The notes under the pieces: generated by a model
The model's input: only the letters and a program-made list of their open reading frames with translations
The model's database searches: none
What the model was told of the DNA's origin: nothing
NCBI RefSeq assembly: GCF_001984155.1
Contig: NZ_MTQO01000053.1
Span: 930,001 to 994,000, forward strand
DNA from: Actinosynnema sp. ALI-1.44
Lineage (GTDB): Bacteria; Actinomycetota; Actinomycetes; Mycobacteriales; Pseudonocardiaceae
DNA length: 64,000 nucleotides
Direction: 5' to 3'
Translations under genes and position numbers: made by a program
In this document: one piece after another, positions 4,357 through 49,214 of the stretch
Numbering within the stretch: the first letter of the stretch is position 1
Layout: the number at the start of each line of letters is the position of its first letter

Positions 4357-5139
4357 CTCCTGGATCCTGGCGCCCTTGAAGTCGTTGTCCAGCAAGTCGT
4401 CGTAGGCGTCCGTACCAGTCAGGTGCTTGAGGAAGAACGCGGTCAGCATCGCGCGGGAGGTTCGCTGGGTCCTGCGTTCGCCCTTGCCCGGCAACAGCAG
4501 TTGGCTCCAGTGCCGTCCTTCGGTGAACCCGAGGTGCCCGGCTTTGGGCAGCTCACGCACCTGCACCGGCCCCGCCCACGCCTTGGCGATCAGGTCGGCG
4601 TTGCCGACAGCGGGGGCGACCAGGTCGTTCTCGGCGGTCAGGTGCAGTCCTGGCATCCGGCACGAGCGTGCGGCCTCGACAGCGGACGGTCGCGCCTCGG
4701 CCGCCGCCAGCGTCGCGACGGCACAGACCCGGGAGTCCTCGGCCGCGGCCAGCACCGCGCTCCCGCCGCCGAAGCAGTGCCCGGCCAGCCCCAGCCGATC
4801 GGGTGAAACCGTGACCTGGCCGTCGCCGAGCCGCACGTTGACGCACGTCTGGAGGGCGGTCCGGAGGTCGGCGGCGAACAGCCGGTGCGACCCGAGCGGG
4901 CCGACGTGCGTGTTCGGCGCGACCACGACGATGCCGTGGGTGGCCAGGTGACGCAGGAGACCGTGGTAGCGCAACGCGGGCTGCAGCCAGCCGTGTCCGA
5001 ACGCGACGGCCGGCAGACCGTGCCCTGACCTGGGCGTGAACAGCACTCCGGGCTGCCCGACCAGGCCGAGGTCACCCCGCAGTACCGAGTGCGGACCGGG
5101 AAGTGCCAGCTCGTAGGCCAGCTGCTTGGCGCGTGCCAT
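4330..5139 (-). CDS. Alpha/beta hydrolase, dienelactone hydrolase/chlorophyllase-like
   Basis: The 269-residue cytoplasmic enzyme has the alpha/beta-hydrolase fold. The oxyanion region (FGHGWLQ, about residue 48) is followed by a nucleophile elbow GHCFGG near residue 120, an acid in the segment TAENDLVAP and a histidine in AGHLGF. The elbow has Cys where esterases have Ser, as in dienelactone hydrolases. The substrate cannot be told from sequence. It runs against the ESX cluster and overlaps its last gene by 27 bases, so it is a separate unit. Confidence 0.75.
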   Translation of the reverse strand: MARAKQLAYELALPGPHSVLRGDLGLVGQPGVLFTPRSGHGLPAVAFGHGWLQPALRYHGLLRHLATHGIVVVAPNTHVGPLGSHRLFAADLRTALQTCVNVRLGDGQVTVSPDRLGLAGHCFGGGSAVLAAAEDSRVCAVATLAAAEARPSAVEAARSCRMPGLHLTAENDLVAPAVGNADLIAKAWAGPVQVRELPKAGHLGFTEGRHWSQLLLPGKGERRTQRTSRAMLTAFFLKHLTGTDAYDDLLDNDFKGARIQESPLLHPGV

Positions 5140-5181
5140 GAGGCGACGTTATCCGATGGCCGCCGGGCTCACCCGGTCACC

Positions 5182-5748
5182 TCACGGTTGCGAAGACCGC
5201 TCGGCGGTCAGGCGCTCGGCGGTCGCATGTGCCGCGCGCTCGTCGTGGTCGTGCGGATCGCTCACGGCCAGACCAGGGGAGACCGCCGTACCCGCGACAG
5301 GTCCGGCGGACTGCTGCAACGTGTGCGTCACCTCGTGCGCGAGCGTCTGGTAACCCTCGGTGGATTCGGGGTTGTAGGCGCCCGTGTTGAAGAAGACGTC
5401 GTTGCCCGTGGTGAAGGCCCGTGCACCGAGCTGGTTGGACAGGCTCGCCGCGGTGGCGTCCGTGTGCAGACGGACGTCGCCGAGCGACTGCCCGAGCCCG
5501 CTCTCCATCTGGGTACGGACCTGCGCGGGCAGCGGACTGCCCCCACCGAGTTGCCCCCGGATGCGGTCGGCGACGTCATCGCCGGGAAGTCCGCGGGACT
5601 CACCCTCGATGAGCCGGGCGACCATCTGATTCCCGCCCGCGAGAACGGCGTTTGCGGAATCGTCCTTGACGGCGGCTGTCTCGGTGGAGACTTGTGCCCG
5701 CTGCCGCGCGCTGCCAGCCTCCTCGGCGCGGATACGGTCAGGCTCCAT
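5182..5748 (-). CDS. DUF4157 (eCIS-core-type) zinc-motif protein
   Basis: This 188-residue protein carries the DUF4157 signature: an acidic N-terminal helix, a segment around LGDVRLHTD, a FFNTGAYNP strand, and the zinc-protease motif HEVTH within LAHEVTHTLQQ at about residue 137. DUF4157 is known from toxins and from proteins encoded near extracellular contractile injection systems, but here the domain stands alone with no injection-system gene nearby. No signal peptide is seen. It lies 4 bases downstream of the unknown gene at 5753-6196 and is probably co-transcribed with it. Peptidase activity is an inference from the intact HExxH. Confidence 0.8.
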   Translation of the reverse strand: MEPDRIRAEEAGSARQRAQVSTETAAVKDDSANAVLAGGNQMVARLIEGESRGLPGDDVADRIRGQLGGGSPLPAQVRTQMESGLGQSLGDVRLHTDATAASLSNQLGARAFTTGNDVFFNTGAYNPESTEGYQTLAHEVTHTLQQSAGPVAGTAVSPGLAVSDPHDHDERAAHATAERLTAERSSQP

Positions 5749-5752
5749 GAAT

Positions 5753-6196
5753 TCAGGTTAGGCGCCTCGGTGACCATTTCATACGGATGGCGACGACGAA
5801 GACCCTCTGGTCCTGCCTGCGCTGGTAAACGGTGACAACGAACGTGCCCGCCTTGGCGCCCCTTCGGGCTAGGAAGTCCTCGGCGCACGCCCTCGTGTAG
5901 GTGGTCAGCCAGGCCACCTTGTGCTCGGGTCGCTGGCTGAAACACCATCCCTGGTCTTCGACGGTCTCGGTGTACTCGAGGATCCGGTGGGACTTCGAAA
6001 TCTCCCGGCGGTACTCGATCTCATGGGTGTAGTTCCAAAACTTCGTCACGGTCGACGGATGATCGCGGTGCGAATCACTGGCTACGATTCGTACGGAATG
6101 CCTTCCGGGCAACAGGAATAGCGAAATCCGGCCGGTTCGCCGCAGCCGTGCTGCGGACTTCCCGGGACGCGGCGCCCCGCGAGTGCGAACGTTCAT
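5753..6196 (-). CDS. Unknown protein upstream of DUF4157 gene
   Basis: I do not recognise this protein. The frame ends 4 bases before the DUF4157 gene, suggesting an operon. The C-terminal 100 residues are rich in aromatic and charged residues with beta-strand character (VTVYQRR, RVFVVAIRMKW) and contain two cysteines (GWCFSQ, RACAEDF). The start is uncertain: ATG at 6196 gives 147 residues without a clear ribosome binding site, and GTG at 6049 gives about 98. Base composition of the first 150 bases is less coding-like, which favours a shorter protein. It could be the partner or inhibitor of the DUF4157 protein, but that is only context. Confidence 0.5.
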   Translation of the reverse strand: MNVRTRGAPRPGKSAARLRRTGRISLFLLPGRHSVRIVASDSHRDHPSTVTKFWNYTHEIEYRREISKSHRILEYTETVEDQGWCFSQRPEHKVAWLTTYTRACAEDFLARRGAKAGTFVVTVYQRRQDQRVFVVAIRMKWSPRRLT

Positions 6197-6279
6197 TTCG
6201 ACATAACCCGGTTTTGGGGTGCGCGTCGTGCGCCGGGGTGAGGGTGGCTCCCGGTGTAGATCCCGAACTGGGAGGTACT

Positions 6280-7815
6280 GTGTCCGTCCCCACCACACCC
6301 TCACGTCGTTCCGTCCTGCTCGGCGGTGCCGCCGCGTTGGGCATCACGGCGCTGGGCACCACGCAGGCGAGCGCGTCCGCCGACCGGCTCGCCGACCCGT
6401 TCACGCTGGGCATCGCGTCCGGCGACCCCGATCACCACAGTGTCGTGCTGTGGACCCGGTTGGCGCAGAACCCCCTGGCTGACAACGGCCTTGGCGGAAT
6501 GCCGGATCGGCCGTACCTCGTCGAGTGGGAGATCGCCACCGACGAGCGGTTCCGGCGGACTGTCCGGCGTGGTGTCGAGCTGGCCCGGCCGCAGTCGGCG
6601 CACAGCGTGCACGTGGAGGTCGACGGGCTGCGGCCCGGCTCGGAGTACTTCTACCGTTTCCGTACGCAGGGCCACGTCTCCGAAGCCGGGCGGACGAGGA
6701 CCGCGCCCGCACCGGGCACTCTGCGCACCGACCTGACGATGTGCTTCGCGTCCTGCAGCCATTTCGGCGCCGGGCACTTCACGGCGTACAAGCGGCTTGC
6801 CGAGGACGAGCCCGGCCTGATCCTGCACCTCGGTGACTACCAGTACGAGTACGCGGCGGGCGCCAACGACGTCCGCAAGGTCCTCGGCCCGGAGACCCGG
6901 ACGCTGGAGAACTACCGACTGCGACACGCGCAGTACAAGACCGACCCGGATCTCCAGCTCGCGCACGCGACCGCGCCCTGGCTGACGGTCTGGGACGATC
7001 ATGAGACGGAGAACAACTGGGCGGACGAGGTCCCGGAGCAGCCGGACCCCGATTTCCTCGCCCGGCGCAAGAACGCTTTCCAGGCGTACTACGAGAACAT
7101 GCCGTTGCGTCGCACCGCCCGCCCTCGTGGCATCGACATGCGGCTCTACCGCCGTATCCAGTGGGGCGCACTGATCAACTTCCACATGCTCGACACCCGC
7201 CAGTACCGCGATGACCAGGCGTGTGGCGACGGCGTCAAGGCGAACTGCGACGCGCGGCTGGAGCCGACCCGGTCCATCACCGGGGAGGAGCAGGAGCGGT
7301 GGCTGCTCGACGGCCTCCGGCGCTCCCGTGCGCGCTGGGACGTCCTCGGCCAGCAGGTGTTCTTCTCGCAGATCGACCTCACGCCCGGCGCCGCGCAGGG
7401 TTACAACATGGACGCATGGGACGGCTACAAGGCCAACCGCGACCGGGTCGCCGAAGGGCTCGGCCGGACTCGCAACGGTGTTGTGCTGACCGGTGACGTG
7501 CACCGGCACTGGGCCGCTGAGATCAAGTCCGACTACACCGACCCGACCTCGCGGGGACTGGGCACGGAGTTCGTCACGACGTCGATCACGAGCGGCGGCG
7601 ACGGCAACGACGACCCGAACGCCGGTGTGCTGGCCGAGAACCCGCACGTCAAGTTCCACAAGAACCGGCGCGGGTACATCCGGACGAAGTTCACCGCCGA
7701 CGAGTTGCGGGCGGATTACCGGATCCTGCCGTACGTCCGCCAGGCGGGAGCCGAAGCGTCGACCGCCGCCAGCTTCGTGGTCGCCGACCGTGACCCCAGC
7801 CTGCACCGGGCGTAA
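6280..7815 (+). CDS. Tat-exported PhoD-type alkaline phosphatase/phosphodiesterase
   Basis: The GTG start is preceded by GGAGGT. The 511-residue precursor has a twin-arginine signal (SRRSVLLGG, then a hydrophobic core ending ASA). A PhoD N-terminal domain follows (FTLGIASGDP, WTRL), then the calcineurin-like metallophosphatase core: FASCSHFG, HLGDYQYEY, WDDHETENNW, LDTRQYRD and LTGDVHRHWAAE, which supply the metal ligands of PhoD enzymes (Fe/Ca centre in the family). It probably hydrolyses phosphomono- or diesters outside the cell to gain phosphate. It is divergent from the DUF4157 unit. No PHO box was identified. Confidence 0.92.
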   Translation: MSVPTTPSRRSVLLGGAAALGITALGTTQASASADRLADPFTLGIASGDPDHHSVVLWTRLAQNPLADNGLGGMPDRPYLVEWEIATDERFRRTVRRGVELARPQSAHSVHVEVDGLRPGSEYFYRFRTQGHVSEAGRTRTAPAPGTLRTDLTMCFASCSHFGAGHFTAYKRLAEDEPGLILHLGDYQYEYAAGANDVRKVLGPETRTLENYRLRHAQYKTDPDLQLAHATAPWLTVWDDHETENNWADEVPEQPDPDFLARRKNAFQAYYENMPLRRTARPRGIDMRLYRRIQWGALINFHMLDTRQYRDDQACGDGVKANCDARLEPTRSITGEEQERWLLDGLRRSRARWDVLGQQVFFSQIDLTPGAAQGYNMDAWDGYKANRDRVAEGLGRTRNGVVLTGDVHRHWAAEIKSDYTDPTSRGLGTEFVTTSITSGGDGNDDPNAGVLAENPHVKFHKNRRGYIRTKFTADELRADYRILPYVRQAGAEASTAASFVVADRDPSLHRA

Positions 7816-44531: not shown

Positions 44532-47147
44532 CTAGCTGCCGAGGCAGACGAACGGGCGGCGCAGCGGATCCACGCTCACCGCCTCGGCCAGCGCCACGGC
44601 GGGGGACGCGCCGGAACCCAAAGCCCGGTGGTAGTCGTCCATGGCCGCCGCTGCGGGCAGGTCCCCGACGCGGCTGGCCGCGGCCACCACCGTGCCGACG
44701 CCACCGGCCAGCAGGGCCCCGGCGAAGCCCAGTGCCTCGTCACCGGGGCGGATCCGGTTCAGCGCCAGTTCGCACGCGGCGAGCACGACCTGACGCGGTG
44801 GCTGGTGCAGCCGGGCGAGTTCGTGGGCGAACAGCGCGCCGTCGACCAGTTCCAGCCGGGAGAACAACGCGTTGTCAGCCTCGTGTTCACCGTGCGCGGC
44901 GACGTGCACCAGCGACGCGCCGTCCATGGTCTCCAGCACACGGGACGCCGTCGCGTCCGTACCCGCCAGCAGCGTCGAATTGTCGTAGTGCGCGGCCAGT
45001 TTGTCGATCTCGCCGATGGCCGCGGCCAATCCGGGGCCACGGACCAAGGCCGTGTGGCCTGCCGAGGGCGCCGCCCCGCGCGACGCGGCGAGCCACGCGG
45101 TCGCCGACGGCGCGACCACGACCGGTCGGGACCGCAGCGAATCCAAAGCGCCCCAAGGAACCGCGTAGAGCGAACCGGTCGGGACGATCACCCACTCGCC
45201 CGCCAGCCCGGTCAACGGCCGCATCAGCTGCTCGTCCAGCGCGGCGGCGTGTTTGCGGGCCGACGCCGAGATCGCGTCGAACAGCGGTTCCGGCAGGTGG
45301 TCGGGGGCCATGGCGTTGAGGTCCGCGTGCAGCCGCATGGCGTTCTCGCTCGCCGCTGCCGCCGAACCAAGCCGCACCAGCCGGACCCGTCCACCGGCAA
45401 GCACGACGGCCAGCAGCGAGTCACCGGACACCGCGAAGCTGACCAGTCCCGCCGATCCGAGCTGTGCCAACACATCCGCGACGCCCGCGACCGGGCGGGG
45501 CTTGCCCCAGCGGGACGCCGCGTGCCAGCCGAGCCGCATCGCGGCGCGCCGCCGCTCGGTGTAGCGGGACTGCAACTTCGCCGTCGGCCTGCCCTCGATC
45601 CGGGCCTGGCGCAGCGTGTAGCCCAGGTGCCGCGTCTCGGCGATGAGCTCACTGAGCCGCGGATCGTCGGAACCCGATGCCTCGTACCGGTACGTCTGTG
45701 CCCGCGTTCGTTCCAGCCAGTCGAACAGGCGCCGCGCCTCGGCGGCCGTGTCGCCACCGCCGAGCACCAGCCGGACCGCGAGGTCCCCGAGCTCCTGGCC
45801 GTGGATCGCGGTGCCGGACACCAGTTCCAGCCCGCCCATCCGGTCGCGTGCCCGGCTCAGTTCGTTCAGCCCGGCACGTGCCTGCGCGAACGCCTTCCGG
45901 CGGTTACCTTGTGCCACAGCGAGTTCGGCCTGGCAGAGCCGCAGCAGCATGCGCTGTTCGATCGGGGTCAGCTGACCGGGCCGCGGCACTTGGGCAAGCA
46001 ACTCCTCGGCTCGCGCGGGATCACCGCGCAGCAACTCCAGCCGTGCGGCCAGTGTGCCCGCGAGCATGGCGTCGTCCGTGAGCCGGAGTGTGCGTAGTTG
46101 TTGGGCGAGTTGGGTTGCCAGCGCGGGCAACCGGGCCGGGATGCGGCCGGAGCCGATGGCGCGCTTGGCGTCCACGCGCAGGCTGATCAACGCCGCGATG
46201 GTCGCCCACGATTCGTTGCCGCGTTTGAGCAGCCGCCGCCTCGCCGCGGTGGCCATCCGCTTGGCGAGGGTCAGCTCGTCCTCCAGCAGTGCCGCCGCCG
46301 CGCGGAACAGTTCGGCTTCCGCGAGGTCCTGGTAGACGCGCTGCTCCCGGGCGTGCGGGATGACCAGGTCCAGGTCCTGGCCCGCGTGGTCGGCCAGCCC
46401 GGCGGCCAGCAGCGCCTGCGCGCGGTCCAGCCGCAGCCGGGACAGCATGTCCGGACCCTGTTCCTGGCAGATCCGTTCGGCTTCCTCGTAACAGCGCAGC
46501 GCGCCGGGGATGTCACCGGTGCGGCGCTTGAGGTCGCCGAGCGAGATCATGGTGATGGCCAGCCGGATCGGCAGGTTGTGCTCGATCGCGATGGCGATCG
46601 CCCGGTTGAGGTCCCTCGTCGCCGGGCCGAGCCTGCCGGTGATCACGTACGCCAGGCCGCGGTTGGCGATCGAGGCGAGCAGCGACTCGGTGATCCGGGC
46701 GGGATCGTCGGTGCCCTCGGCCAGACAGCGTTCCTTGTGCTCGATGGCCGAGTCGAGCAGCGGGATCCCCTCTTCGTCACGGCCCGCGCGCATCAGAACG
46801 GTGGCGTGGTTGTGGTCGACGAACCCGTTGAGCTCCGAGCGGACCGGTCCGGCAGGCAGCCGCGCGATCTCCGGGCGCAGCGCCTGAAGGCCGTCGATGC
46901 CGACCGCGACAGTGCCCAGTTCGGCTTGCGAGTACGCCATGGTGACCTGGATCCGGAACCAGGCCCGCAGCCAGTCGGTCCGCTCGCTCGCCGCCTCCGC
47001 GACGCCGTCCAGTATCGCGAGGGCCTTCCGCATCACGCGGATGGCCTCGGCCTCCCTGGCCTTCGCGCCGAGGGCGAGCGCTCGCCGGTGGAGTTCGCCC
47101 GCCTGACGGATCGCCTCCGCTGTCCGGTTCACGAGGCCGCGACTCAC
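44532..47147 (-). CDS. TPR-CHAT cysteine protease-like protein
   Basis: The 871-residue cytoplasmic protein has about 500 residues of TPR-type helical repeats (for example LRCYEEAERICQEQ, RAEELLAQVPRPGQLTPIEQ) followed by a CHAT domain (about 580-871). The CHAT catalytic pair is intact: H752 in HVAAHGEHE and C792 in VVLAACELAL, 40 residues apart as in caspase-like CHAT and separase folds. CHAT proteins are proteases in bacterial defence and death pathways. A 111-residue protein with GGYHHD repeats is encoded just upstream on the same strand and is a candidate substrate. The GTG start at 47147 is provisional (GTG 47132 is alternative). Confidence 0.9.
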   Translation of the reverse strand: MSRGLVNRTAEAIRQAGELHRRALALGAKAREAEAIRVMRKALAILDGVAEAASERTDWLRAWFRIQVTMAYSQAELGTVAVGIDGLQALRPEIARLPAGPVRSELNGFVDHNHATVLMRAGRDEEGIPLLDSAIEHKERCLAEGTDDPARITESLLASIANRGLAYVITGRLGPATRDLNRAIAIAIEHNLPIRLAITMISLGDLKRRTGDIPGALRCYEEAERICQEQGPDMLSRLRLDRAQALLAAGLADHAGQDLDLVIPHAREQRVYQDLAEAELFRAAAALLEDELTLAKRMATAARRRLLKRGNESWATIAALISLRVDAKRAIGSGRIPARLPALATQLAQQLRTLRLTDDAMLAGTLAARLELLRGDPARAEELLAQVPRPGQLTPIEQRMLLRLCQAELAVAQGNRRKAFAQARAGLNELSRARDRMGGLELVSGTAIHGQELGDLAVRLVLGGGDTAAEARRLFDWLERTRAQTYRYEASGSDDPRLSELIAETRHLGYTLRQARIEGRPTAKLQSRYTERRRAAMRLGWHAASRWGKPRPVAGVADVLAQLGSAGLVSFAVSGDSLLAVVLAGGRVRLVRLGSAAAASENAMRLHADLNAMAPDHLPEPLFDAISASARKHAAALDEQLMRPLTGLAGEWVIVPTGSLYAVPWGALDSLRSRPVVVAPSATAWLAASRGAAPSAGHTALVRGPGLAAAIGEIDKLAAHYDNSTLLAGTDATASRVLETMDGASLVHVAAHGEHEADNALFSRLELVDGALFAHELARLHQPPRQVVLAACELALNRIRPGDEALGFAGALLAGGVGTVVAAASRVGDLPAAAAMDDYHRALGSGASPAVALAEAVSVDPLRRPFVCLGS

Positions 47148-47181
47148 CTGACTATGAGATCACAGAATCCGGACAAAAGAA

Positions 47182-47216
47182 GCCCCGTGGGCCGGACATT
47201 GCCCGGCCCGCAGGGC
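47182..47216 (-). terminator. Hairpin with T-run between the GGYHHD gene and the CHAT gene
   Basis: Fourteen-base arms with one mismatch and one G-U pair, loop of seven. On the minus strand the stem is followed by TTCTTTTG, a good intrinsic terminator for this GC content. It lies after the GGYHHD gene and before the CHAT gene, so it probably lets only part of the transcripts reach the protease gene. Confidence 0.75.
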
Positions 47217-47231
47217 GCGGCGTGCCGAAGA

Positions 47232-47567
47232 TCAGGAATTCGTGCTCGTGGTCGGCACGCTGTCGTGGTGGTAACCACCGGTGGGCCGAACCCGGGGCTC
47301 GGGCTGCGGCTCGGGCTCCGGCTCCGGGTCGACCGGAGTGCCGTCGTGGTGGTAGCCGCCGGTGGGCCGCGGCAGCACGCCGACCGGCCCGGTGTCGTGG
47401 TGGTAGCCGCCGTCGTCGGTCGTGACCTTGGGGTCCGCGGGCAGAGCGCCGCCACTGCTGTCCACGACCTCGGTCTGCTGGGCACCGGCCTGTGACCGGG
47501 TGTTCTCGCCCTGCTTCGGCTTGACCAGGCCTTGTAGGTCTTCGTTCTCCGTGTTGGCCGTCGTCAT
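47232..47567 (-). CDS. Small disordered protein with three GGYHHD repeats
   Basis: GAGGAGG lies 10 bases before the ATG at 47567, a strong site. The 111-residue acidic, Pro-rich protein has no cysteine, signal peptide or membrane helix. Its N-terminal half (MTTANTENEDLQGLVKPKQG) is polar; its second half holds three units: DDGGYHHDTGP, PTGGYHHDGTP and PTGGYHHDSVP, separated by Pro/Glu linkers. The layout is that of a repeat substrate or modified-peptide precursor. It is encoded upstream of the TPR-CHAT protein. Streptomycetes have small repeat proteins (DSHATG type) that I recall near CHAT genes, which supports a functional pair. No function is known. Confidence 0.8.
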   Translation of the reverse strand: MTTANTENEDLQGLVKPKQGENTRSQAGAQQTEVVDSSGGALPADPKVTTDDGGYHHDTGPVGVLPRPTGGYHHDGTPVDPEPEPEPQPEPRVRPTGGYHHDSVPTTSTNS

Positions 47568-47736
47568 GGGTAGTTCCCTCCTCGTAACGCGCTCTGGGCA
47601 CGTGTCCCCTGTCCGGAGTCGTGAACCGGTGATCACGACTCTCGGTGTTCAAACGCGGCTCCCCCCATGGAACCCGCCTGGAATGTACCGCACGAATGGG
47701 GGAATGGGAATTACGAAGAGAAACGAGATCTTGGTT

Positions 47737-47762
47737 CAATTGCTCCAATTGTGACGCAATTG
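47737..47762. promoter_or_regulatory. Triple CAATTG motif upstream of the GGYHHD-CHAT unit
   Basis: CAATTG occurs at 47737, 47746 and 47757, three times in 26 bases of an otherwise GC-rich chromosome, about 170 bases upstream of the GGYHHD start and just beyond the aldehyde dehydrogenase stop. It could be a regulator site or part of the promoter. Function is inferred from position only. Confidence 0.4.
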
Positions 47763-47768
47763 ATCCGC

Positions 47769-49214
47769 TCAGAGGCTAACGTTTGTCAGGACCGTTATCC
47801 GCTCCTCGGTCAGGTCGATCATCGCCGACCGGACGCCTTCCCGGCCGAATCCGGACCCCTTCACACCGCCGTACGGCATCTGGTCAGCGCGGAACGACGG
47901 AACGTCGCCGACGATGACCCCGCCGACTTCCAGCTCCGCGCCCGCCCGGGTCGCCGTCGGCAGATCGCGCGTGAAGATCCCGGCCTGAAGCCCGTACGCC
48001 GATGAATTCACCCGATCGAACGCCTCGTCGTTACCGTCCACAATTGACACAACAAGGACAGGTCCGAACACCTCCTCGGCCCAGACCTTGCTGTCCTCCG
48101 GCGCGTCGAGCAGCACGGTCGGCTCGACCAGCGTGCCGTCCCGGTGCCCACCGGCCAGCAGCTTCGCGCCCCGGGACGTGGCTTCCTCGATCCAGGACAC
48201 GATCCGCTCGGCGGCCGATTCGTCGACAACCGGACCGACCTCGACCTCGGGGTCATGCGGGTCGCCGTTGCGCAGCCCGCGGACCGCGTCGACGAGCTTG
48301 CCGACGAACTCGTCCGCGACGGCCCGGTCGACGAGGACCCGCTGGACGGCGATGCACGACTGCCCGGCCTGGTAGTTGCCGAACGTGGCGATCCGGGCGG
48401 CGGCGAAGTCGAGGTCGGGCCAGTCCGCGCACACCACGGCCGCCGCGTTGCCGCCCAGTTCGAGCACGAAGTGCTTGCGCGGCGCGGCGTCCATCAACGA
48501 CCAGCCGACCGGTCCCGACCCGGTGAACGACACCACGGGCAACCGGTCGTCCCGCACGAGCGCGGCCGTCGCCTCGTTGCCGACCGGCAGGACCGAGAAC
48601 GCGCCGTCCGGCAGATCCGTCTCGGCCAGCAGTTCGCCGAGCACCAAGGACGACAGCGGCGTACGCGGTGCGGGCTTGATCACAATCGGGGCGCCGACCG
48701 CGAGCGACGGCGCGACCTTGTGCGCCACCAGGTTGAGCGGGAAGTTGAACGGCGCGATGCCCAGCACCGGTCCGCGCGGGAACCGGCGGACCAGCGCGAC
48801 CCGCCCGGCCATGCTCGCCTCGGTGTCCAGCCGCTGGATCTCGCCGCCGAACCGGCGCGCCTCCTCGGCGGCCACCCGGAACGTCGACACCGCGCGCCGG
48901 ACCTCGATCTCGGCCCACTTCAGCGGTTTGCCGTTCTCGGCGGTGATCAGCTCGGCGAGCTCCTCGGCCTGCTCGGCGAGACCGCGCGACACGTGCTCCA
49001 GCGCGTCGGCCCGTACGTGTGCGGGCGTGCGCCGGAACTCGGAGGCCACGGCGGCGGCCGCCGCGACGGCGCGTTCGACCTGCTCGGGTCCGGGAACGGC
49101 GACAGTGGCCACTTCGGAACCGTCGAACGGGTGGTGCACGGTCAGTGCTTCCACGCCCTGCTCAGGGCGTCCCGCGATCCAACAGGGCCGAGGTGTGGGC
49201 GTGTAGGCATCCAT
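47769..49214 (-). CDS. NAD(P)-dependent aldehyde dehydrogenase
   Basis: The 481-residue enzyme (ATG 49214) has the ALDH motifs: NAPFNFPLN-like IAPFNFPLNLVAHK, cofactor GSGPVG, glutamate in LELGGNAA and the catalytic Cys in AGQSCIAVQR, then EEVFGPVLVV. The YGGVKGSGFGREG end is typical of succinate-semialdehyde or glyceraldehyde-3-phosphate (non-phosphorylating) types. The exact aldehyde is unknown. It is divergent from guaA with 128 bases between. Confidence 0.92.
   Translation of the reverse strand: MDAYTPTPRPCWIAGRPEQGVEALTVHHPFDGSEVATVAVPGPEQVERAVAAAAAVASEFRRTPAHVRADALEHVSRGLAEQAEELAELITAENGKPLKWAEIEVRRAVSTFRVAAEEARRFGGEIQRLDTEASMAGRVALVRRFPRGPVLGIAPFNFPLNLVAHKVAPSLAVGAPIVIKPAPRTPLSSLVLGELLAETDLPDGAFSVLPVGNEATAALVRDDRLPVVSFTGSGPVGWSLMDAAPRKHFVLELGGNAAAVVCADWPDLDFAAARIATFGNYQAGQSCIAVQRVLVDRAVADEFVGKLVDAVRGLRNGDPHDPEVEVGPVVDESAAERIVSWIEEATSRGAKLLAGGHRDGTLVEPTVLLDAPEDSKVWAEEVFGPVLVVSIVDGNDEAFDRVNSSAYGLQAGIFTRDLPTATRAGAELEVGGVIVGDVPSFRADQMPYGGVKGSGFGREGVRSAMIDLTEERITVLTNVSL

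Follow-up and report, generated by a model that had tools for sequence, protein, structure and literature searches.

A repeat peptide and a TPR-CHAT protease encoded side by side in Actinosynnema sp. ALI-1.44 and related actinobacteria

Introduction

In the type III-E CRISPR system (Craspase), Csx29, a protease with tetratricopeptide repeats (TPR) and a CHAT domain, cleaves an inhibitor of a sigma factor (PMC10028731). This Csx29-Csx30-CASP-sigma system is the nearest studied one to the gene pair described here, which lies in a 64,000-nucleotide stretch of Actinosynnema sp. ALI-1.44 (contig NZ_MTQO01000053.1, positions 930,001 to 994,000; hereafter the window, whose own numbering is used) and encodes a TPR-CHAT protease and, upstream of it, a peptide with three copies of the motif GGYHHD. 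In both cases a TPR-CHAT protease has a co-encoded partner, and relatives of the window CHAT adjoin an extracytoplasmic function (ECF)-type sigma factor and a small protein. However, the window CHAT does not belong to Csx29: with the csx29 model NF041237 (NCBIfam) it scored 17 bits over the CHAT core, where the cut-off is 300. Its partner is a disordered repeat peptide, whereas that of Craspase is the 565-residue Csx30 (PMC10028731). The window neighbours that were identified are metabolic genes and one trypsin-like gene.

EACC1-caspase pairs, two-gene units with a caspase-superfamily protease that are common in multicellular actinobacteria (PMC7159879), resemble the window pair in layout only. 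That paper describes a conserved membrane helix in EACC1, whereas the window peptide has no membrane segment, and a whole-word search of the paper's main text did not return CHAT. Unlike the partner in CHAT-gasdermin pairs, the window peptide matched no Pfam family, gasdermin included. RRNPP systems comprise TPR receptors with an adjoining variable pro-peptide gene, sometimes with several repeats. The window pair likewise has a TPR protein beside a small variable peptide gene, but its peptide lacks an export signal and its output domain is a protease; no hydrophobic segment, as would mark a secreted pro-peptide of the RRNPP type, was found in the 72 related peptides described below. Precursors of ribosomally synthesised and post-translationally modified peptides with several cores also share features with it, namely a leader that is near-constant within Kibdelosporangium and repeated variable cores, but no modification enzyme is among the shared neighbours.

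To our knowledge, few substrates of bacterial CHAT proteases are known, and no publication on a peptide/TPR-CHAT pair was found in the literature searched, in which subscription journals are poorly covered. The pair looks like an undescribed protease-and-partner signalling family. We lean modestly towards the view that the co-encoded TPR-CHAT recognises or cleaves the repeats as its motif, with the peptide as its dedicated substrate; the window pair would then be a derived form, and the smallest, of a protease module of actinobacteria. The basis for this is a constant neighbourhood, an intact catalytic dyad, selection on the repeats, a partner class that follows the CHAT tree and a hairpin that separates the two genes.

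The window pair

The TPR-CHAT coding sequence occupies positions 44532..47147 on the minus strand (871 residues, GTG start) and that of the peptide 47232..47567 on the same strand (111 residues, ATG at 47567 to the stop at 47232). In Pfam searches the protease scored 86.3 bits with CHAT (PF12770; cut-off 24) and 37.6 bits with TPR_12 (cut-off 30.1). The codons of the catalytic residues His752 (HVAAHG; 44892..44894) and Cys792 (AACEL; 44772..44774), both on the minus strand, were located by sequence and alignments, and neither residue varied in an alignment of 5 sequences or in one of 47. Score and dyad place the protein among the PF12770 CHAT proteases, with predicted activity. An earlier note on this DNA, made from the letters alone, had described a CHAT protein with intact H752 and C792 at 44532-47567 downstream of a 111-residue disordered peptide with three GGYHHD units, and both descriptions were confirmed.

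The peptide is acidic (net charge -10), is disordered judging by its sequence and has no hydrophobic segment. It had no Pfam match and a single NCBIfam match far below the cut-off. A motif search placed the units at 47394..47411, 47343..47360 and 47262..47279 (minus strand), in the contexts DGGYHHDTGP, TGGYHHDGTP and TGGYHHDSVP. The setting proposed before, P/T-GGYHHD-x2-P, was right about the three units and wrong about the preceding residues, which are D, T and T. When back-translated, GGYHHD has exactly three sites in the 11.7-megabase (Mb) genome, all in this peptide, and any repeated 6-mer was obtained in 26 of 20,000 shuffles of the peptide.

A short gene precedes the CHAT gene in 72 related loci

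An alignment of the CHAT was scanned against a collection of 84,980 species, which yielded 140 relatives, and the best 80 were kept. Together with the window protein and two paralogues, L026 of the same genome and the distant L025, 83 TPR-CHATs were compared (L numbers denote loci). The catalytic His and Cys were retained in all 83, ten of which were missed by the regular expression and read by eye, and 72 of the 83 formed one clade (support 100). Upstream of every one of these 72 CHATs lies a short open reading frame (ORF) of 47-111 residues, ending 57-175 bases before the aligned CHAT start.

The peptides of the 72 loci fall into the classes REP (20), CGGC (35) and CCG (17, Lentzea). Partner classes were assigned by regular expression, except that L073, L077, L078 and L082 (Lentzea) were placed in CCG, and L089 and L025 in DUF, by eye. 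A 5-mer occurs at least twice in 18 of the 20 REP peptides; L087, which has no repeat, and L040, with one copy, were counted as REP. The CGGC peptides carry paired Cys residues near the C-terminus, often as C-x-GGC, behind a His- or acid-rich stretch. A 5-mer is found twice in one of the 35 CGGC and in two of the 17 CCG peptides. The core motif varies by clade (GPVHHQ, GGPYKPT, paired Cys, CCG...CPNHP). On the CHAT tree the partner class needs four changes, which is the minimum, vs a mean of 41.9 with shuffled labels, and REP is not a single clade. REP and CGGC loci coexist at separate places in 12 named genomes and in the window genome, the peptide type matching the locus in each case. An N-terminal helix motif common to all peptides was also considered and rejected, the pattern being present in 6 of 20 REP, 0 of 35 CGGC and 0 of 17 CCG peptides.

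Orthologues of the window peptide are present in Kibdelosporangium-type genomes, where the locus of Kibdelosporangium is syntenic with the window. The N-terminal leader of the window peptide (MTTANTENEDLQGLVKPK; 47514..47567, minus strand), its first 18 residues, is near-identical in five related peptides (L022, L032, L033, L034 and L036) while the repeats differ. The Kibdelosporangium repeats change together, reading GPVHHQT, GPVSHQT, GPVHHES or GPVHHTG vs GGYHHD in the window; L117, also from Kibdelosporangium, has a different leader. Peptides from further genomes contain DGPVQQDG six times (L127) and GGPYKPLDEP four times (L137).

A peptide was present in 35 of the 36 loci (window included) whose CHAT is nearest to that of the window among three references; in this set 3 of 89 loci gave no CHAT match, and many loci come from the same genomes as the named set and are not independent. 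Three peptides were searched in 150 genomes each. Of the genomes with a match, 4 of 4 (window genome included), 5 of 6 and 3 of 3 had it beside a CHAT. The sole exception, G161, is a weak peptide match (E 7e-4) with two internal stops. The proposal that the peptide is tied to its adjoining CHAT held wherever the peptide was found, this weak match apart, and the search for homologues without a CHAT, which the earlier note had suggested, returned a CHAT neighbour in 12 of 13 genomes with a match.

The ratio of non-synonymous to synonymous substitution rates (dN/dS) was below 1 in 17 of 17 peptide pairs (0.08-0.76), indicating that the peptides are real genes; for the CHATs it was 0.05-0.29. Chance or an annotation artefact was ruled out by this ratio, the genome-unique repeats and the shuffle test. 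No membrane or signal segment was found in the 72 peptides, none of which has a 19-residue window above hydropathy 0.81.

Related TPR-CHATs adjoin a sigma factor, a small protein and a subtilisin

Outside the peptide clade, the same TPR-CHAT family adjoins an ECF-type sigma factor, a protein of ~150 residues and a subtilisin (S8). The ~150-residue protein gave a weak carboxypeptidase-regulatory-like match in one copy and none in the others. Simple gene calls in 20 loci of other families identified S8 in at least 15 and sigma in at least 10. The tree and the genomes of other families relate the window CHAT to the TPR-CHAT of this module. The sigma, ~150-residue protein and S8 genes are not among the genes flanking the window CHAT, as judged by Pfam; L025, a separate locus in the window genome, has sigma-like and ~150-residue-protein ORFs by eye.

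In 21 of 30 S8 partners, 3-8 identical 4-mers precede the catalytic domain, and the last unit starts 43-56 residues before the motif-defined catalytic Asp. Examples are APFTRG (eight copies), GHPITG (seven), NPFHAS and VPFGSG (six each), and NPYHSG and NPFMKT (four each). None of 13 control S8s, taken from some of the same genomes, had three copies (3 of 33 S8 loci were unreadable by the pattern, and 13 of 27 control loci were readable). Among 17 whole control S8 proteins, none had at least four copies of a 5-mer and one had three; ten others were incomplete. Tandem units in an S8 beside a TPR-CHAT were seen in L098, L107, L219, L224, L229, L246 and L248, and further in L250, L255, L256, L257, L258 and L262. 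Units such as PFGSGV, PFTRGA, PFHASN, GHPITG and NPYHSG differ between genomes, with many synonymous differences between the units.

In Pseudonocardiaceae, the gene before sigma has at least two units in 10 of 26 distinct loci, and five more have one unit by eye; of 64 loci, 29 had a recognisable sigma ORF, 26 of them distinct, and one upstream ORF was taken per locus. The units lie on a free peptide in Kutzneria (NGIPQAET) and Streptoalloteichus (GATDPS), or are fused to a C-terminal domain of ~85 residues (GWDPYxPP four to five times, GWEPYSPP nine times, GAWDPNTPP five times). The fused form was observed in L145, L152, L163, L167 and L174, with one unit in L174. Its C-terminal domain, GVWIAVxGxGWKxLSPASESGHSHL...YHEDxxGxIDQLVV, matched no Pfam family, and no PDB entry came below E 0.12. 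The Kutzneria CHATs are sister to the peptide-CHAT clade in a quick tree (support 94 in the Shimodaira-Hasegawa-like approximate likelihood ratio test, SH-aLRT), which suggests an order from S8-sigma-CHAT through peptide-sigma-CHAT to peptide-CHAT.

The parallel in streptomycetes that had been proposed was not found: in the 10 loci of the streptomycete-sized family f33 (L293-L302, genomes of 6-11 Mb), no called gene upstream of the CHAT has a 5-mer three times, though single-unit peptides may be present. By gene calls, sigma (7 of 10) and S8 (7 of 10) lie divergently beside the TPR-CHAT in this family. In 10 loci of families f31, f32 and f34, three copies of a 5-mer were found only in one divergent neighbour of 494 residues (L309).

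The repeat copies are alike in protein and differ in codons

Among the units of one gene, 18 S8 linkers showed differences at 5.4% of residues vs 39.9% of synonymous codons, and 15 peptides or fused repeats at 7.3% vs 32.5%; the units were collected by their likeness to a single one, so that the residue figure is somewhat too low. Because the units are alike in protein while ~40% of synonymous codons differ, selection, and not fresh duplication alone, keeps them alike. In 12 of 20 genes the synonymous codon identity of the units was within 0.02 of, or below, the prediction from gene-wide usage, and for the window repeats it was 0.78 vs 0.81. The copies within a gene are held to one sequence, and this sequence varies from species to species. 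A single recogniser per cell that reads all copies would produce such a pattern, and the only protein common to the S8, fused and free forms is the TPR-CHAT. The earlier suggestion that the repeats are recognition sites agrees with this, as they behave like sites read by one protein.

DNA signals between and before the genes

A GC-rich, terminator-like hairpin (47182..47216, minus strand; folding z -4.3), followed by TTCTTTTG, separates the two window genes. Behind the stop codon of the peptide, 70 of 72 loci have such a hairpin with z < -1.5, and the class means lie between -4.4 and -4.8; for comparison, it was found in one of four loci with the ~150-residue protein and three of five with S8. 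A simple terminator scan returned one weak site at the window hairpin vs 0.4 expected. We discarded the hairpin as a mark of every repeat partner, since it stands behind 8 of 20 S8 genes as well as 12 of 17 pre-sigma genes, and relied on the result for the peptide-CHAT loci alone.

Just 5' of the CHAT start codon lies a conserved block, TGTGATCTCATAG (47152..47164, minus strand), a putative promoter element. The block TGTGNTNTCAT stands at a near-fixed distance 5' of the CHAT start in 51 of 72 loci, and by eye a related variant is present in most of the 17 Lentzea loci; it was not found in 11 loci with other partners. For the pre-CHAT block, one site was found in the window vs 0.00 expected. 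The whole 11.7-Mb genome has just two sites for the combination TGTGNTSTCATAG-N4-GTG, and these precede the two peptide-partnered CHAT genes (window and L313). No standard sigma-70 promoter was found in 47100-47900, and a search of 47000-48000 for known RNA elements (Rfam) gave none with an E value of 1 or lower.

Upstream of the peptide, 63 of 72 loci have a second block that agrees with a 22-base template in at least 15 bases, vs 3 of 216 Markov controls; the template was drawn from the same data as tested. The block had no match at the window locus and its Kibdelosporangium and Actinocrispum relatives. These signals are most simply read as two transcripts under separate control, with an excess of peptide and with the blocks as presumptive promoters. 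The window peptide gene has a ribosome-binding site, GAGGAGG, at 47577..47583 (minus strand), and the ATG behind it, which is common to the relatives, is the predicted start; a longer in-frame alternative begins at a GTG (134 residues, reaching 47636).

The loci are chromosomal

The genes flanking the window pair encode, by Pfam, a GMC oxidoreductase, a berberine-type oxidase, an aldehyde dehydrogenase, guaA and a trypsin-like protein. The nearest named relatives of the window CHAT are from Kibdelosporangium and Actinocrispum (68-69%), and the window genome has 14 CHAT matches. The pair adjoins guaA and the aldehyde dehydrogenase in the window and five named Kibdelosporangium-type/Actinocrispum loci (Pfam-checked), and it follows gatA and gatB in 29 loci (12 REP and 17 Lentzea CCG), with gatC seen in 27. 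This synteny implies that the same ancestral place holds wholly different peptide cores. At the gatCAB place we observed GGPYKPT repeats in Saccharothrix and a Cys-His peptide, CCG...CPNHP, in Lentzea (L082, L085, L088, L097 and others); here the core is replaced, while the place and the protease are kept.

A search of a plasmid collection gave one match, in a chromosome-sized record, and a phage search one match, a metagenomic fragment of 33% identity. The best PADLOC match had an E value of 0.054 for the window CHAT and 1e-4 for a relative's CHAT. The earlier note had suggested a signalling or defence system; mobile antiphage defence was not supported: the places are fixed, chromosomal and syntenic, the neighbours are housekeeping genes, no plasmid proper was among the matches and no defence-library match was strong. 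The earlier note had also considered modified peptide cores. No modifying enzyme is among the shared neighbours of the loci (gatC, gatA and gatB in one clade, guaA and aldehyde dehydrogenase in another), although such an enzyme may be encoded elsewhere.

Discussion

If the repeats are protease sites, the module would consist of a TPR-CHAT caspase-like protease encoded with a partner chain that bears copies of the short motif it reads. In the fuller forms this motif would precede the S8 catalytic domain, beside the ECF-type sigma and the ~150-residue protein. In the window form the sigma, the ~150-residue protein and the S8 would have been lost, leaving the three GGYHHD units on a free acidic peptide. 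Once activated, the TPR-CHAT would bind the repeats and cut in or beside them, and in the S8 forms the cut would free the subtilisin. The peptide, probably in excess from its own terminated transcript, may occupy the protease and so brake it until consumed.

Several observations weigh against this. The weakest part is the Cys classes, the majority of the clade: 49 of 52 CGGC and CCG peptides have no 5-mer twice and only a Cys motif, so that a single repeat-reading rule does not cover them. L147, whose CHAT is among those nearest to the window's, has no peptide and encodes a ~150-residue protein instead. Fewer than three copies were present in 9 of 30 S8 partners (six with a 4-mer twice, which is shuffle level, and three with none), and 11 of the 26 distinct pre-sigma loci had no unit. 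In 8 of 20 genes the codon identity of the units exceeded the gene-wide prediction by 0.05 to 0.26 (L224, 0.82 vs 0.60; L038, 0.90 vs 0.64), so some recent duplication is involved. Hairpins also stand behind S8 genes (8 of 20, and three of five in the other set), and the repeats of the S8 forms could be self-processing sites of the S8. Finally, TPR docking without cleavage fits equally well.

Such docking is the main rival, although we rate it as rather unlikely. Here the repeats would occupy the TPR superhelix or the CHAT cleft and inhibit the protease by multivalent binding, until the peptide is lost or modified and the enzyme set free. TPR domains bind short linear motifs, and the 54 PDB chains matched by the CHAT profile at E 0.01 are TPR proteins, with no CHAT among them but with the peptide binders LGN/Pins and a Rap phosphatase. 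The separation by a hairpin suits a peptide in excess, and the repeats are copies of one ligand. In the S8 relatives, however, the repeats lie directly ahead of the catalytic domain, a position better suited to a cut site.

An improbable alternative is a precursor from which the CHAT frees the repeat cores, to serve as signals within or between cells or as a peptide product of ribosomal origin. The near-constant leader with variable multi-copy cores in Kibdelosporangium is as expected of such a precursor, as are several copies per chain and one protease partner, but the 72 peptides have no signal segment and the shared neighbours are housekeeping genes. It is very unlikely that the repeats mimic sites of foreign (phage) proteases whose cutting releases the CHAT or S8 activity: the repeats do differ strongly between species, but paralogues in the same genome bear different motifs tied to their own CHAT clade, and the loci keep their chromosomal place and have no strong defence-library match. 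Least credible is a metal- or redox-responsive peptide that gates the CHAT through metal-binding His and Cys motifs. In its favour, His-rich and Cys motifs are found in the CGGC and CCG classes and HH in many repeats, but GGPYKPT, DGPVQQDG and most S8 linker units have neither Cys nor His.

Extending the reading of the repeats as protease sites, we tentatively put forward, as something that may well not hold, a joint view of the family. Each actinobacterial TPR-CHAT would read its own species-specific motif, held alike across its copies by selection, on interchangeable partners (the stretch before an S8 catalytic domain, the linker before the ~85-residue domain, or a free peptide). Protease specificity would shift in step with the motif, so that one cell could contain proteolytic circuits isolated from each other. 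The type III-E Csx29-Csx30-sigma set might then be a relative captured by CRISPR. The shared sigma, small protein and TPR-CHAT would suggest a source for the type III-E CRISPR protease module. If the repeats are sites, the substrate of a large actinobacterial family could be read from the adjoining gene, and specificity could be compared across dozens of natural motif-protease pairs, which may also provide orthogonal protease-tag pairs.

Additional observations

In Lentzea indica (L108, ~5010-7403) the CHAT is shortened after the catalytic Cys (797 residues, with an odd C-terminus), which is a frameshift or assembly error; the sequence was used uncorrected. L036 and L042, titled Rhodococcus rhodnii NRRL B-16535, cluster tightly with Kibdelosporangium aridum at both loci, and this record is probably mislabelled.

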